64,000 nucleotides of DNA from Paratrimastix pyriformis (Eukaryota; Preaxostyla; Paratrimastigidae). Of this stretch, positions 12,901 through 21,200 are shown piece after piece. The translations under genes and the position numbers were made by a program. Position 1 is the first letter of the stretch; the number at the start of each line of letters is the position of its first letter. The notes beneath the pieces are model-generated. The model was given only the letters and a program-made list of their open reading frames with translations. It had not been told where the DNA came from and ran no database searches. The DNA is taken from the NCBI GenBank assembly GCA_027972325.1, contig JAPMOS010000018.1, positions 124,001 to 188,000 on the forward strand, in the 5' to 3' direction.

Positions 12901-15900
12901 AGCGATGGCCGGCTGGGTGACGACCGGGTGGTGGCTGGCTGGCTGGGGCTGGCTGGGTGGTGGCTGACTGGGGGCTGGCTGGCTGGCTGGCTGGCTGGCT
13001 GGGGGGCTGGGCAGCGGAGCAGCAGCGGCAGCTGCGTGAGAAGGACGAGGCCATCGCGACGCTGCGGGAGGACATCAACCGGAAGCAGTCGCTGCTCTCG
13101 GTGGCCGTCTCGACCGAGACCGTGGCCAAGGCCCGCATGGACGAGCTGGCCGCCAAGCTGGCCGCCCAGGGGCGCTGTACAAGAACAAGGAGGTCGAGCT
13201 GGTGCTGGCCAACAAGAAGCTCGACGAGCAGCGGAGCACCATCCAGGAGAAGGAGGAGCTGGTCATGCGGCTGAAGAAGGAGAACCAGGACCTCGAGAAG
13301 TTCCGCTACGTGTACGAGTTCAAGATCAAGGAGCTCCAGAAGGAGATCCGTCCGTCGGCCAGCCCCCGCCCCCCCCTCGGCCCCCCTCGGCCCCCCCCTC
13401 GGTGATGCCCGGCCATCTCGCCCGGCCCCCATCCCTGGCCCCCGCCCATCGGCCATCCCCCCCCCCCCCCCTCACCCGTGCCGCCGCACCTTCCGCCATC
13501 TTCATGGTTCCTCTTGGCTGGCGGGCTGTGGGGCGGGCTGTGGGGCGGGCTGTGGGGCGGGCTGTGGGGCGGGCTGTGGGGCGGGCTGTGGGGCGGGCTG
13601 TGGGGCGGGCTGTGGGGCGGGCTGTGGGGCGGGCTGTGGGGCGGGCTGTGGGGCGGGGGCGGGGCTGTGGGCAGAGCCGCGGGACGAGGAGATCGCCCAG
13701 ATGCACGACCAGATCCGCGACATGGACGGCGAGCTCGAGTCCGACCACCGCAAGTTCGCCGAGCTGGTCCGGCCCCGTCGCCCCTGTTGCCCCCTGTTGC
13801 CCCCTGTTGCCCCCTGTTGCCCCCTGTTGCCCCCGTTGCCCCCTGTTGCCCCCCGTTGCCCCCTGTTGCCCCCGTTGCCCCCGTTGCCTCTGCCGAGAGG
13901 GCTGCCCCTGATGGTCGACTGGTGGGTGGGGGCGCAGCAAGCGAACAAGGCCGACCTCGACCTCAAGAACGCCGCCCTCAAGAAGGAGGTGGCCCTCAGG
14001 TCGGCGCCCCTGCCCTGCACCCCTGTCGCACCCATCCCCGCCCCGCCCCGCCCCCCGCCCCGCCCCCGCCCCGCCCCGCCCCGCCCCCCCGCCCCCGCCC
14101 CGCCCCCGCCCCCGCCCCGCCCCCGCCCCGCCCCCGCCCCGCCCCCGCCCCCGCCCCTGCTCCGCGCCTTCTCCCGGCCCTTGAGCGTGGGTGGCCCTGC
14201 GGCTCTGAGTGGGGTGCCCGCGGGTGCGGCGCGGCTTCTCACGGGGCTGCGGCTTGGTCGGCCGGGGTGCCGTCTGGGCGGGCCGGGGAGCAGGCAGAAG
14301 GTCTTCACCCAGGCCCGGGTCATCGAGAACTTCGAGCACGACCTGCACAGCGTCGTCGCCTCCGAGCCCCGGTCCGCGGCCCCGCCCACATGCTGCCCCA
14401 CATGCTGCCCCACATGCTGCCCCACATGCTGCCCCACATGCTGCCCCACATGCTGCCCCACATGCTGCCCCACATGCTGCCCCACATGCTGCCCCACATG
14501 CTGCCCCACATGCTGCCCCACATGCTGCCCCGCATGCTGCCCTGCCCCACGTGCTGCCCCACGTGCTGCCCCACATGCTGCCCCACATGCTGCCCTGCTC
14601 ACATGCTGCCCTGCCTCGGCCTCGCATGCTGCGCCTCCGCTTGCCGCGGCTGGGGGCGGCTCCCCCATGGGCGATGGGCCTCCTCACCTGGTGCTGGCCG
14701 CGGGGTGGGCGGGCGGGGTGGGGGCCCGGACGCGGGCGCGGGTGGGGCTGGGGGCTGGGCAGCCAATGGCCGGGGCTGATCAAGGCCCTCTACGAGAAGC
14801 ACGTCGTGCGGCCGGCCGAGGCGAGCCGGATGCAGGAGGGCTCCGACGAGAAGGTCCAGGAGTTCGCCCGGCAGCGGGAGTTCCTCGAGCGGTCGGTGCA
14901 GATGCTGAAGAAGTCCCTGGGCCGGCACCGGGACCAGGGCAAGGGCGAGGTCCAGCAGAAGCTCGACGAGAACACCACCCTCATCCGGTCCGCCCACCAG
15001 CGCCCTCGCCCCTCCGCCTCGCCCCCCTTCCTGACGGCCCTCATCTGGCCCACCCCCGCCCCTGGCCCTCCCCTTTCCTGACGGCCCGCTCGGTCACGCT
15101 CACCGCGTCCCTGGCTGTGGTTGTGGGCTATGGGGCTTGGGGGCTTGGGGGCTTGGGGGCTATGGGGGCTATGGGGGCTATGGGGGCTTGGGGGTTTGGG
15201 GGCAGGGAGATCAACGACCTGCGGCGGGAGAAGCGCATCAAGGACCTCAAGATCCAGCAGCTCACCGTCCGCCCCGCCCCGCCATCACCATCACGCCCCG
15301 TCATCACGCCCCGCCAACCAGCCAGCCTCATCCGCCAGTCCCATCCGCCAGCTCCATCCGCCCTTCGTCCTCCCTCCCTCCCTCCCTCCCTCCCTCCCTC
15401 CCCCCCCCCCCCTCCCTCCCTATCGCTCGCTGCCCCTTCCATGGCCGTGCCCCCTTCCATTTTGTTGGAGCGTTTGGCTGCTGTGGTGGTGTGTCCTGAC
15501 GGGCTCCCTCCCTCCCCGGGCGGCGTGGCGTGGGCGGCGTGGCGTGGGGACGGGCGGGTGCGGGGCAGGGCCTGCTGGAGAAGGAGCGCGAGAAGAACGC
15601 GCCCCCCGTGCCCAGCTCGACCTCCCCCATGGCCCGCGAATCCGGTCCGCCCGGCTGCCCGGCCCACTGGGCAGGGGTGTTGACGGGGGTATGTTGACGG
15701 GGGCGCGGCTCACTGGGCGCGGCTCACTGGGCGCGGCTCACTGGGCGCGGCTCACTGGGCGCGGCTCACTGGGCGCGGCTCGCTGGGCGCGGCTCACTGG
15801 GCGCGGCTCGCTGGGCGCGGCTCACTGGGCGCGGCTCACTGGGCGCGGCTCACTGGGCGCGGCTCTGGGCGGGGTGGCGGGCTCCTGGTGGGGCGGGCAG

Positions 15901-16915
15901 AGGAGGAGGAGACCCCCAACGGGCGCCGCTCGGCCCCGCCGGGCCGGCTGATCAAGGGCTCCACAAAGCAGTGGGCCGAGGTCACAAGGTCGGCCCCTCA
16001 TGCCCCTCAGGGCCGTCTGGCTCACTCTGTGCGCATGGGGCTGGCGTCGGACCTGCCGGGGCTGGGACCTGCCGGGGCCTGGCCTGGGACATGGCTCACT
16101 CTTGACGCCTGGGTGCTGCTGGGTGCTGCTGGGTGCTGCTGGGTGCTGCTGGGTGCTGCTGGGTGCTGCTGGGTGCTGCTGGGTGCTGCTGGGTGCTGCT
16201 GGGTGCTGCTGGGTGCTGCTGGGTGCTGGTGGCGGTGTGGCGGTGTGGTGCGGCAGCGAGCGGTCGCGGGTGGCGGCCCTGATCGGGCAGCTGGAGGCCA
16301 ACAACCGGGAGATGGAGATCCAGAAGGACCTCATCCGCCGCCTGCGGGACCACCTCCAGGACCTCCTCGCGGGCGGCATCGCCAGCCCGGCTGCCCTCCA
16401 GGGGGTCGTCGCGGCCCTCCAAGGCGCCGGTCCGCCACCCTGCCCCCCTTTCGGGCCGCCCCGCCTCCATCCGCTTGCCCTCATCGTCACGCCCCTTCCC
16501 CTCTTCTGCTGTTTTTCGCGCCGCGTTGGCCGCCCCAGCCCCCCACACGCCCCCGGATGGCGTCAGGCCCGGCTCGCGCCAGGGCGGGGCCGATGGGGGG
16601 GTGTCCTCTCCGCCCGACCTGAGCCCGCCGCGAGAGAGGCCCTCGGCGTCGATGGCGCCCACGCCCCCACTTGCCTCGCGGCTGGTCGCCTCCCCGGCCA
16701 GCGCCAGGCTGCCACCGGCTGGTCTTTTGCACCCCGGCGGGATGCCCGTGCCCCCATCATCTCCTGGGGGTCTCCCGTCAACACCCCCAGGGGGAAGGAG
16801 ACTGCCGGCCTTGAGCAGCACCCCCACCGCGATCAGCGGCACCCCGTCCATCCTCCAAGAATCTGGCACGCCCACCCCAATGGCGGCCCCGGCCCCCAAG
16901 AGTGGCCGAAGGTGA
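5735..16915 (+). CDS. CFAP57: CFAP57 (WDR65): axonemal WD40/coiled-coil protein
   Basis: CFAP57 is a cilium/flagellum protein linked to inner dynein arms. The order of segments follows the animal protein closely. The N-terminal WD40 half has [115 protein letters not shown] and [11 protein letters not shown]. The second half is a long coiled coil (for example [93 protein letters not shown]) and a Pro/Ser-rich tail. The first intron is 5869-5939 and the second 6169-6303; over twenty more follow, many filled with tandem repeats. Three conserved exons seem to change frame by one base (near 6763, 7137, 13172), which looks like consensus error. Exact exon ends in the GC-rich part are approximate. 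Confidence 0.88.
6420..6447. repeat. 28-nt G run in a CFAP57 intron
   Basis: An unbroken run of G follows GGAGGAGGA, between the exon ending near 6399 (VAFT) and the next conserved exon. Confidence 0.9.
6930..6965. repeat. 36-nt G run in a CFAP57 intron
   Basis: An unbroken run of G just after two near-identical stretches reading CAAACCCGGCACCACCATGG (6878-6915). Its length in the assembly may be unreliable. Confidence 0.9.
7897..8130. repeat. CCCCTG/CCCCG pyrimidine-rich array (intron)
   Basis: Irregular CCCCTG and CCCCACTG units pass into CCCCGCC units, within the CFAP57 intron that ends before [10 protein letters not shown]. Confidence 0.85.
8520..8898. repeat. 12-bp minisatellite GGTCATCTCATC (intron)
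   Basis: About 20 near-perfect copies of the 12-mer, then a run of the shorter unit CGGTCAT. It fills the intron between the exons encoding WVRVWNYM and SLHPSGFH of CFAP57. Confidence 0.95.
9172..9292. repeat. CCACG pentamer array (intron)
   Basis: Tandem CCACG with some CCATG and CCACA variants. It follows the CFAP57 exon ending LFQLKG. Confidence 0.9.
11750..12690. repeat. Large minisatellite of 12-13 bp units (intron)
   Basis: About 940 bp of TGGCTGGGGTGTG and TGTCTGGGGTGTG units mixed in no fixed order. It lies between the CFAP57 exons encoding [10 protein letters not shown] and [16 protein letters not shown]. The top strand is purine/T-rich with almost no A, so all forward frames stay open; the long Gly/Cys/Val/Trp proteins predicted here are artefacts. 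Confidence 0.95.
12938..13006. repeat. GGCT tetramer array (intron)
   Basis: Interrupted GGCTGGCT repeats just before the CFAP57 exon encoding [14 protein letters not shown]. Confidence 0.85.
13520..13664. repeat. 12-bp minisatellite GGGGCGGGCTGT (intron)
   Basis: About 12 nearly identical copies before the CFAP57 exon encoding [14 protein letters not shown]. Confidence 0.95.
13783..13886. repeat. TTGCCCCC/TTGCCCCCTG array (intron)
   Basis: Tandem 8-10 bp units follow the CFAP57 exon ending HRKFAELV. Confidence 0.88.
14388..14606. repeat. 12-bp minisatellite CACATGCTGCCC (intron)
   Basis: About 13 regular copies, then degenerate ones, between the CFAP57 exons encoding [13 protein letters not shown] and [10 protein letters not shown]. 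Confidence 0.95.
15698..15868. repeat. 14-bp minisatellite GGGCGCGGCTCACT (intron)
   Basis: About 12 copies, two of them with CTCGCT, in the intron before the CFAP57 exon encoding [15 protein letters not shown]. Confidence 0.92.
16110..16227. repeat. 10-bp minisatellite GGGTGCTGCT (intron)
   Basis: About 11 perfect copies before the CFAP57 exon encoding [14 protein letters not shown]. Confidence 0.95.
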
Positions 16916-17300
16916 CGAGAGGTCCAGTAGTCCTCCGTTCGGCCAGGTGTACATTTAGTCCCCATTCTCTGGTTTCATCAAGAGCTGTGCGGTTTCGGTT
17001 CAGCAATTGATTTCGATCGCCTTGTCATCTGGTTTGGCTGTGGCGGATCGGGAACCTCCTCCAGAGAGGCGCCAAGGTTTTGTGTCAAAAACTGCGCCAA
17101 ACCAACCCGGGTCACCCAGCTCTGGTGTGTTTTTTTTCAGTCCTTCGAAGTCGGAGTTTCTCACCATTTCCTCCATTTTTTGTCCTTTTTTGCGGATTTT
17201 CCCTCCTTTTCCCCCACTTTTTCTTCGGATTCCCTAGTTTGGAAACTCACAACATCAGCATCTCAGTTTCATAAGTGGCGAATCATTAAACAATTCTCGA
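16916..17300. other. Intergenic, CFAP57 to antizyme
   Basis: 385 bp of lower GC than either gene body, with T-rich stretches near 17130-17220. It must hold the CFAP57 3' end and the antizyme promoter and leader. No further gene is seen. Confidence 0.5.
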
Positions 17301-17870
17301 ATGGATTCAATTCTCACCTTCTCCTGCGCTTCGGAGAACCGTTGCTCTGACACCGTCTTCCTGTTCGGTAAGAAAGTCGGTATGCGGGTCATGCGGTGCT
17401 TTTAGCGTTCAGCAACAGCTGACTCAAGCTGGCTATCAGCCGCTCGAGGGCCTCCCGGTTCCTTTTGGCCTCGAAGATGCGCTCCACCAGCTTCCCAAGG
17501 ATGCGGACCTGATCGCTGTGGTCTCGAAAGATGAGCTCGACAACTGCATGGGATCTATTGTGGGAATGATTGAGGACTCCACTGTCCGTCTCAACATTGT
17601 CGGTGAGCTTCCTCGGCGTTCTGGCTTGACGACTCTCCTCGACGTCTGCTCCATTCTGGGCGTTGACGTTTGCTCGTCGGTGACCATCAGCCTGGACCCC
17701 AAGACCCAGAAGTCTCTGGCGAAGTCCCTGCTTTTCCTCGGCTTCTCTCCCATGAAGTCCGGCCCTGCCCAGGATGTCATGCAGATGACCTATGTCGTTG
17801 TCTGTTCGCTGTGTCACCACACTCCTTCATTTCCCGCACTCTTCCCGTCCAGGCTCCTGCTCGTGCTTAA
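17301..17870 (+). CDS. OAZ: Ornithine decarboxylase antizyme, predicted +1 frameshift
   Basis: Antizyme binds ornithine decarboxylase monomers and sends them to the proteasome; polyamines raise its synthesis by promoting a +1 ribosomal frameshift. ORF1 starts at ATG 17301 (MDSILTFSCASENRCSD) and stops at TAG 17403-17405 after 34 codons. The long conserved frame is exactly +1 and is already open at GCT 17398. Its C-terminus reads STVRLNIVGELPRRSGLTTL, LLDVCSILGVDVCSSVTISL, then DPKTQKSLAKSLLFLGFSPM. This aligns with animal antizyme (YVEIPGGPLPEG; LLEFAEEQLRADHVFICFHK; LLRTFSFLGFEIV). An intron at 17794-17852 (GTCGTT...CCAG) puts the end at TYAPARA and TAA 17868-17870. Human antizyme shifts at UCC-UGA; here the site is UUU-UAG. 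The family assignment rests on alignment by eye. Confidence 0.75.
17397..17406 (+). promoter_or_regulatory. Predicted +1 programmed frameshift site UGC UUU UAG C
   Basis: In the ORF1 frame the codons are TGC TTT TAG. Skipping one base after TTT gives AGC GTT CAG and enters the conserved antizyme frame. A stop codon next to a slippery codon is the usual layout. The stretch 17368-17405 (GTAAGA...TTTTAG) also looks like a 38-nt intron, but removing it leads to TGA six codons on and not to the conserved frame. Confidence 0.6.
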
Positions 17871-18238
17871 AGGGAAGCAATGCACGCCCGATTGACGATC
17901 GTGTTTTCTCTGGCCGCCTCTCCCACCGAAAGTCCGATGACGCGAGGGGTGAAGGGGTGCTCCGTTCGATTCTCTTCAGTGCGCGTTGGGTTGAGCGCCT
18001 CAGTGCGGCGACCGTGCGCGGTTGCTGCCTTCACCGCAGCCTCTCAAGGATGTGGGAATCGAGTAGGGGGTGAGGTAGGCCGGGGGGAATTTCGATCGTC
18101 GCTCGTGATTGTGCGTTTGTTTGCCAATAAGACACCGCCCCGCTTCGTGCCCCGCTTCGAGGGTGGTGGGTCCGGTTGATGTTTTGGCGCGCGGGGAGAG
18201 GGCAGGGGGATGGGGGAACGGGTGGGGCGGGGTGCGCC
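17871..18238. other. Intergenic between convergent antizyme and RRP12 genes
   Basis: 368 bp holding both 3' ends. No coding signal or RNA gene is seen. Confidence 0.5.
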
Positions 18239-21200
18239 TCAAGTGCGCTTCTTGTGGTGGTGCGACTGGCGGCCGCCGGCGGGCTTTGCGGCAGCGCGGG
18301 CGCCCTTCTTGGCGGCGGACATCATCTTCTCGAAGCCCCGGGCGACGGCCTTCCGGTTCCTGCGGCCCCCCCAATCCGACCCGGCGAGCGCAGACCACCC
18401 GCCACCGCCGCCCGGCCCGCATGAGCCACCACACCGCCGCCCGGGCATGGGCGGGCACAGGGCCGGAGGAGGGGGGCGGACCGTTTGTTGACGTTGGCGG
18501 GGTCGAGGGTGATGTACGCGTAGGGGTCGGCCTTGCCCTTCTTCGTCATGTCGCCCGCAGCCTAGGGCCCCGATGGCAACGGGAAAGGAAAAGGGGCGCC
18601 CGGTGAGCCCGAGGGGCGGCGGGGGGGGGGGGGGGGGGGGCGGACCCTCTGGGAGCGGTAGGTCTGGCCCAGCTTGGCGAACTGCTTCTCGATGCCTGAC
18701 CCCTCGGCCTCCTTGCGGGCCTTCTTGCGGCCCCGGTCGGCCCCGGGCGCACCGGCTCGGCCTGCCCCACACCGACCCGCCAGCAGCCCAGCCCAGCCCA
18801 GCCCAGCCCAGCCCAGCCCAGCCCAGCCCAGCCCAGCCCAGCCCAGCCCAGCCCAGCCCAGCCCAGCCCAGCCCAGCCCAGCCCAGCCCAGCCCAGCGTG
18901 GCTCAGGTCTCGGGCCAAGGGGTGCCAAGGGTGCCGAGGGGTGCCAAGGGTGCCAAGGGAGGGGGGCGGACCCTTCTTGGGGGCCTCGAGGGGCATGGGG
19001 GCCGCCTCGTCGCGGTCCTCGTTCTCGTCGGGCCGCTTGGCCTCGCCGCGCCGCATCCGCTGCAGGGTCCCCTCCCGCAGCTCGCTCAGGGCGGCCCCGA
19101 TGGCTCCCTGCGGCCCCGCTCCGGCCCCAGCCCCGGCCCCAGCCGGGCCCGCCTGGAGGCCCCAACCCCACGGGCAGGGAGCGAACCACAGCCGGGGAAA
19201 GCGGTGAGGGCGGGCAGCGAGGCGACTCGGCGGTCTGCCGGCTCGTTGGCGGCGAGGGTGCCGTCCGCATTTCCGCTCGGTCGGTCGGCCCGCGGTCGTT
19301 CCCCTCCGAATCCCATCTTTGGGGGATAAATCGGAGAAAAATAATTTCGCCCGCTGCAGGAGTCGAACCTACGACCAGTTGCCCGCCTTGCGGCAGGAGA
19401 ACCGCTCTTCCTCTGAGCTAAACGGGCGTCACGGGGCTGAGGAGCCCGGCTCGGGCACATGTCCAAGATGCAAGATGCACCGCCACCCGCCACCGCCACG
19501 AGCGCCGACAATTCTTTTCCACAAGAGTTCGGCAGTCGTGCCAGGCGGTGCGGGCTGATCTTTTGAGGGGCATCTTCGGCCGACTCGCCCACCGAAAAGA
19601 AGGTGGTGCTGCCCAATGCAGTGCGTGGATGTGCCCAGGGCGCAGGGCGGAGGGCGGAGGGCGGAGGGCGGAGGGCGGACCTGCTGCTGGTCGGGGGCGA
19701 TGAGGAGCTTGCCCGCGTCGTCGGTGGGGAACTCGCCCCGCCGCTGGCGCTTGCCGAGGGCCTTGCGGGGGGCCCCCTGCCCCTGCCCCTGCTCCGGCTC
19801 CTGGCGGCCGGCCGGCTCGGCGGCTGCCTGGGCGGCTGCCTCGGCCTCCTGGCGCCGGGCGGCCCGGAAGACGGAGGCCAGCGAGGGCGCCCGCTCGTCG
19901 GCCCCCTCGTCGCCCTCGCCCGCCCCGTCCTCGGCCCCGCTGGTGTCGTCGTCCCGGCCCGCGAGGATGCTCTCGAACTGGTCCCGGGTGCCCCGGCCCG
20001 CCGCCCGCTCGTCCAGCTCGGCCTGGTCCCACCAGGCGCCGCCAGGGAGAAGAGAAGGAGAAGAGCAGGTGAGAGCGGGTGAGAGCGGGTGGGACGGGGC
20101 AGAGGCGAGGTGGGATGTGAGGCCAAGGCGAGGCGGGCCGATGGCCCATCATCGACCGCCAAACCCGCCAAACCCGCCAAGCCCGCCACACCCGCCACAC
20201 CCGCCAAGCCCGCCACACCCGCCAAGCCCGCCAAGCCCGCCAAGCCCGCCAAGCCCGCCAAGCCCGCCAAGCCCGCCAAGCCCGCCAAGCCCGCCAAGCC
20301 CGCCAAGCCCGCCAAGCCCGCCACCCGCCAAGCCCGCCGCCAAACCCGCCAAACCCGAGGGGCGAGGGCGGCCGCAGAGTGGCTGGGCGTGTGGGGCGTG
20401 TGGGGCGGGCGGGACGGACGGTGCGCTGGGCGCGCTTCTTGATGGCCCGGGCGTGCTCGCGGCGGATGTAGGTCAGCATGGGCTGGTCGGCGGCCGGGAC
20501 GAAGTGGGCCACGGCCTCGAAGCCGAACTTGCGCATGGCCTTCTCGAGCAGCACACGCAGGTGGTGCTGCATGTGGGCACGCTTGTCGGCCGGCAGCCCG
20601 AACAGCGCCCCGAACTGCACGGCGGAAGGGGGGGGCGGGGGGCCAGGGGCAGGGGGCGGGGGGCCAGGGGCAGGGGGCCAGGGGCAGGGGGGCAGGGGGC
20701 CAGGGGCAGGGGGCAGGGGGGCAGGGGCGCCCGTGGTGAGGAACAGCCTCGAGGGTTTGAGGGCTGGGGCTGGGGCTGGGGCTGGGGCTGGGGCTGGGGC
20801 TGGGGCTGGGGCTGGGGCTGACCAGGGCCCCGAGGTGGGGCACGACGAGGCGCTGGTGGAGGGAGAGCAGCACCGTGACCACCGCGCAGACGGCGTGGAG
20901 GACCTCGAGCGAGGGCGACCCCAGGAAGAGCACCACGCTCTTCAGGGCCTCCTCCAGGAAGCCCTCACGCACTGGGCCGCCCCACCAGCACCAGCACCAG
21001 CACCAGCACCAGCACCATCATCCCCATCCCCCCCAACCACACGCCGGGCGAAGGAGCCGTCAGCCGTGGGACGGGGATGGGGCGGCCTCGTCGGGCTCCC
21101 CCACCCAACCAGGGGAGGGCTGGGCGGGCGGTGGCGGGGGCACGGGGGGTGCCTGGCGGACCGGGGAGCTCGAGGATGACGCGGGCCATGGCCGTCAGGG

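Follow-up and report, generated by a model that had tools for sequence, protein, structure and literature searches.

According to the excerpts of the papers cited here, the majority of antizyme genes shift at UCC_UGA (PMC5009743), which is also the site of human antizyme 1 (PMC9841425; structures 4zgy, 5bwa). Across a logo of 153 antizyme shift sites, however, the first U of the stop codon is the sole universal base, which implies that the other letters of the stop already vary (PMC2375905). UUU is the shift codon in all Agaricomycete antizymes analysed (UUU-UGA; PMC4505036), and outside the antizymes TTT-TAR has been reported as the +1 site in 54 genes of Euplotes octocarinatus (PMC4759687). 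Here we describe a putative antizyme gene in a 64,000-nucleotide stretch of DNA (the window; 69% GC, part of contig C90 of a genome assembly of 56.06 Mb in 495 contigs), and propose with good confidence that this gene is decoded via +1 ribosomal slippage at UUU-UAG.

The gene has an antizyme-type layout of two overlapping open reading frames (ORFs), with ORF2 in the +1 frame and lacking an AUG of its own upstream of the shift (Table 1). As an earlier interpretation made from the letters alone (the sequence-only reading) had stated, ORF1 consists of 34 codons, starting with the ATG at 17301-17303 and ending in TGC (17397-17399), TTT (17400-17402) and TAG (17403-17405), and the second frame is exactly +1 and overlaps this stop. 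Computed directly, the open stretch of the +1 frame spans 17290 to 17895; it contains no ATG between 17290 and 17403, continues from 17404 as S V Q Q Q L T Q A G and onwards, and has its first ATG past the shift at codon 49 (17548). The end coordinate of that reading, 17870, is right if a probable 53-nt intron is removed, which yields a TAA at this position and a C-terminus ...TYVVAPARA resembling the SYSIAPVAASA of the homologous protein P0001 (see below). Its assertion that no simple explanation other than recoding fits these frames did not hold up. Taking both strands together, the window holds 399 ATG-initiated ORFs of at least 30 codons; in 112 of these, the +1 frame stays open for no fewer than 120 codons beyond the stop. 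Twelve pairs of splice sites could also join the two frames of the gene. The layout therefore proves nothing alone at this GC content, and we discarded it as evidence by itself.

The last ORF1 codon stands beside a stop that begins with U, as at antizyme sites, and UUU_UAG is a candidate shift site. Compared with the majority site, both elements differ, UUU and UAG being present instead of UCC and UGA. The same is true relative to human antizyme 1, from which the gene further differs in a sequence similarity that falls under the Pfam cut-off and in the lack of an Rfam frameshift element (the sole Rfam match in 17250-17650 is an irrelevant chance hit, E 5.9). The Agaricomycete antizymes described in PMC4505036 share UUU as the last ORF1 codon beside the stop, the +1 shift proposed here, the probable antizyme domain in ORF2 and a pair of neighbouring hairpins predicted 3' of the site, whereas their stop is UGA and their first hairpin lies 19 nt after the site, as opposed to 6 nt after the UUU codon in the window. 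With Euplotes octocarinatus the gene shares the six-base UUU_UAR site and the proposed +1 outcome, but there UGA is reassigned and shifts are numerous (PMC4759687), while here UGA ends a likely ornithine decarboxylase (ODC) gene and one frameshift gene was examined. The expectation that knowledge of antizymes would be broadened by a UAG site is thus only partly supported: the passages returned by a literature search name no UAG antizyme site, although a published case may well exist, but stop letters evidently vary already, UUU is an established antizyme shift codon and UUU-UAR an established +1 site in Euplotes. The locus is probably a variation on a known polyamine-sensing switch and not a new kind of switch.

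Evidence bearing on the frame change comes from P0001, whose contig spans 937 bases. This relative matches the window protein with E=1.1e-22 and 46% identity, a similarity indicating that the protein is conserved beyond chance. In the +1 frame, the listed P0001 protein has 13 residues before the shift point (MVGKSLCGWFIVF), followed by SVQQQ. We back-translated residues 2-13, read them one base earlier and compared the result with the ORF1 peptide GKKVGMRVMRCF. The zero frame so obtained allows G, R/G/W, K/Q/E/stop, V/I/E/K, any of eight, M/L/V and R/W for residues 2-8, followed by V/L/M, V, H/Y, C/R/S and F/L/V/I for residues 9-13. At the six positions that differ in the +1 frame, the observed replacements outdo 99.5% of random ones in preserving the zero frame (p 0.005); judged in the +1 frame, the same six are no better than random (p 0.75). 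Under a codon model with a similarity weighting of 0.5, the best zero-frame fit is ahead of the best +1 fit by 3.99 log units, each model being taken at its own best divergence (t 0.5 for the zero frame). The same statistic is negative in all 38 testable windows of ORF2, which served as a +1-coding control (these windows overlap, and any with a stop in the other frame were excluded).

Several results weigh against this interpretation. The test comprises 12 back-translated residues, the DNA of P0001 being outside the comparison, and the divergence at which the zero frame performs best fits ORF2 poorly. At divergences that do fit ORF2 (t 1 to 9), the zero-frame lead shrinks to 1.1-3.6 with a weighting of 0.5 and ranges from +1.5 to -0.9 with a weighting of 0.25, and the unweighted model puts the +1 frame ahead by 0.3 to 2.2. 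The unweighted likelihood test, in which the zero frame is not favoured, was accordingly discarded as support, and because the lead vanishes without weighting, the preference for the zero frame depends on the replacements being conservative. RNA folding is similarly mixed. The 52 nt from 17409 to 17460, a region picked after looking, reach -19.8 kcal/mol (z -1.81; 7 of 200 shuffles as stable), while the other four of the five folded pieces are unremarkable (z -0.11 to -0.50). Overall, the last 12 ORF1 codons appear to fit zero-frame conservation better than +1-frame conservation, with moderate and model-dependent support.

This comparison also bears on an explanation that needs no shift, in which the +1 frame would be read from a non-AUG start upstream of 17404, such as the CTG in GCT CTG ACA, and ORF1 would be an overlapping upstream ORF. 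Such a start would agree with the openness of the +1 frame back to 17290, with the slight +1 preference of the unweighted likelihood, and with the listed P0001 protein, which begins upstream of the shift in this frame and has 6 of 12 residues there identical. We nevertheless regard it as very unlikely, since several of the substitutions that count as radical when read in the +1 frame (S-W, C-F, G-I) are conservative when read in the zero frame, the CTG has an AUG of the other frame upstream of it, and the P0001 start may be a mere choice of the gene caller.

At the shift itself, the F-S pair of P0001 read one base earlier can only be TAG, CAG, TTC or CTC; a stop at this point, if P0001 shifts at one, must therefore be UAG. 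The ten residues past the shift are all identical between the window and P0001, compared with 52 of the 120 residues beyond them (hypergeometric 4e-4; longest-run shuffle 0.028), as would be expected if the nucleotides there served a second purpose. The gap-free alignment of this independent protein across the site, in the same frame relation (V-KS-CG----FSVQQQL), makes it extremely unlikely that an assembly or sequencing error added one surplus T to the TTTT at 17400-17403 of a truly single-frame gene. Homopolymers are the usual places for such indels, but with the base removed the ORF1 residues, by eye, face the P0001 frame with almost no matches. A broader proposal, to which we give an even chance, is that the polyamine sensor was relocated to UUU_UAG throughout a little-sampled eukaryotic lineage, to which both the window genome and the organism encoding P0001 (46% identical) would belong, the last 12 ORF1 codons and the hairpin 6 nt downstream being conserved as a recoding cassette. 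In that case, both the shift codon and the identity of the stop would be replaceable in an antizyme while UGA stays a normal stop.

Splicing could also join the two frames, since an intron in ORF1 would make a frameshift unnecessary. A scan of donors from 17304 to 17402 and YAG acceptors up to 17480, with a length of at least 30 nt, recovered 12 frame-restoring GT/GC..YAG pairs in ORF1 with open joined frames, including 17355-17412 (58 nt), 17363-17405 (43 nt), 17376-17412 (37 nt) and 17376-17439 (64 nt). No YAG is present in 17291-17403, and an earlier splice entry to the +1 frame is therefore impossible by that route. On the donor matrix of this genome, GTCGGT at 17376 scores 6.6 bits and largely matches the altered U1 described below. 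Low scores are not decisive, given that the accepted C-terminal intron has a donor of only 3.8 bits in total (acceptor 8.2), the intron part of which matches the genome consensus. Even so, we consider splicing within ORF1 quite improbable. The 37 nt of 17376-17412 compare with shortest inferred introns of 46 nt (31 in HSP70 and CCT genes) and 48 nt (8 in ODC loci); the donor of the 43-nt candidate scores 0.0 bits, that at 17355 scores 2.4 bits, with 28 of the 31 training introns higher, and the GC donor at 17328 scores -7.7 bits. Eight of the 12 pairs (acceptor 17418 or 17439) would remove 5 or 12 residues of SVQQQLTQAGYQ, the first 10 of which are kept in P0001. Moreover, conservation of the putative intron in P0001 far exceeds the neutral expectation: a neutral, intron-like model trails the zero frame by 4 to 13 log units under all three weightings whenever t is at least 1. 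This conservation is a stronger argument against splicing than the donor scores. Taken on these sequence comparisons, the frame change is most likely ribosomal.

The intron survey revealed an unusual 5' splice site. For this survey, 40 exon pairs of HSP70 and CCT genes were used to infer introns; 31 pairs had candidates, and an expectation-maximisation procedure chose between them. The resulting 31 introns (46 to 270 nt) begin with GT in 28 cases and carry C at +3 in 24 and G at +5 in 27, and all eight introns of the ODC loci (48 to 103 nt; one starting with GC) have C at +3 and G at +5. The consensus for the genome is G/GTCTGT. All eight matches to U1 small nuclear RNA (snRNA) begin ATACAGACCTTG, complementary to this donor, whereas the usual U1 snRNA start is ATACTTACCTG and the usual donor is GTRAGT. 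The changed donor and U1 look like a genome-wide compensatory change, which may be of more interest than the antizyme finding. The CUGU at donor positions +3 to +6 can also pair with the ACAG of U6, such that the changed donor could suit both snRNAs. U6 snRNA (L079, about 1501-1607) retains ACAGAG in the one of four copies that was read.

From the family and structure comparisons, a divergent antizyme is the most likely identity of the second frame. A profile search, named in the sequence-only reading as a check of this identity, places Pfam ODC_AZ as the top family for all three members (window protein, P0001 and P0002), and antizyme chains are among the top fold matches of both AlphaFold models, tied with GNAT enzymes. 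Several observations count against the assignment. The ODC_AZ scores of 12.7-20.0 bits are all under the curated cut-off of 24.2 bits, a genome-wide search with this family was without match (its control was also silent in every genome), the family profile found no antizyme among PDB sequences at E up to 10, nor did a further PDB sequence search, and the fold is common to many GNAT acetyltransferases at similar Z. ORF2 could thus be another GNAT-fold protein with a coincidental +1 shift, for instance an acetyltransferase of polyamines or of proteins, as its sub-threshold ODC_AZ score and the equal fold scores of GNAT chains would allow. We judge this highly unlikely, since none of the Pfam scans of the three members returned an acetyltransferase family and ODC_AZ ranks first in each, and since both the arrangement of ORF1 and ORF2 and the place of the shift match those of antizymes. 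P0001 and P0002 are the only relatives found by protein searches, and a pattern scan of viral_contigs revealed no others; the listed P0002 protein begins inside the domain and is uninformative on the shift site. A search of the genome for a second antizyme copy found only the window's own locus. If the assignment to antizyme is correct, the Pfam antizyme model can miss divergent members, which a two-frame layout combined with one relative can reveal.

Based on these results, we propose that the ribosome starts at the AUG at 17301, reads 34 codons and would reach UAG with peptidyl-tRNA-Phe on UUU, the unspliced site in the mRNA being TGCTTTTAGCGTTCAG. Termination at UAG would then compete with a one-base slip of tRNA-Phe onto the overlapping UUU (17401-17403), with which it could re-pair equally well, and reading would resume at AGC (Ser) to give the junction peptide CFSVQQQLTQAGYQPLEG. 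The +1 frame would continue through the divergent antizyme domain and end at 17870 after removal of the 53-nt intron. UUU is the less frequent of the Phe codons, with a ratio of 4 to 22 among the 555 codons counted in ODC exon stretches, and we infer that its rarity, as well as the downstream hairpin, may contribute to slippage. As in antizymes that have been studied, slippage would be expected to increase with polyamines and the protein product to bind ODC and inactivate it. The genome encodes two likely ODC genes, L002 and L003 (Pfam Orn_Arg_deC_N, E 1.2e-28 and 2.0e-28; judged ODC by eye), which have some intron positions in common. L002 ends in TGA and L003 in TAA; because UGA terminates L002, UAG at the antizyme site is not forced by UGA reassignment.

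If the proposal is correct, antizyme and its control by +1 frameshifting would extend to another lineage, with a sensor that needs no UGA, and the locus would offer a natural system for asking whether the range over which the polyamine sensor works is set by the identity of its stop.

Table 1 Features of the putative antizyme locus and other annotated elements (positions in the window, except for the U1 loci).
Feature	Position	Strand	Description
ORF1 (zero frame)	17301..17405	+	34 codons and UAG stop: MDSILTFSCASENRCSDTVFLFGKKVGMRVMRCF
Zero-frame stretch just 5' of the stop	17367..17402	+	peptide GKKVGMRVMRCF, appears conserved in P0001 (back-translated residues 2-13)
Proposed +1 shift site UUU_UAG	17400..17405	+	seen in sequence; putative mechanism
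ORF2, probable antizyme domain, exon part	17404..17799	+	SVQQQLTQAGYQP...MQMTYVV; Pfam ODC_AZ best but below cut-off, homologues P0001/P0002, structure model
Predicted hairpin UCAGC-AACA-GCUGA, candidate 3' stimulator	17409..17422	+	starts 6 nt after UUU codon
Second predicted hairpin, adjoining the first	17423..17448	+	RNA folding
Probable intron near ORF2 end	17800..17852	+	53 nt, GTCTGT...GTCCAG
ORF2 last exon	17853..17870	+	GCT CCT GCT CGT GCT TAA (APARA stop)
tRNA-Gly (GCC)	19347-19428	minus	only tRNA found by ARAGORN in the window
U1 snRNA loci	L071-L078, starts near 1501	L076, L077 minus	50.8-60.2 bits, under Rfam cut-off 69.5

The source organism is a unicellular, probably non-photosynthetic eukaryote, the lack of photosynthesis being suggested by a genome search that found no light-harvesting (LHC) domain; a partial 18S was located on L009. 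Around the gene, the region 13275-21000 contains long low-complexity tandem repeats (e.g. GCWVLLGAA and GLAGLAG units) in apparent introns or spacers of adjacent genes. A short conserved-looking reading on the minus strand (18239-18561; DPYAYITLDPANVNKR) may resemble the end of RRP12-type nucleolar proteins; the two pieces of it tried had no Pfam match.
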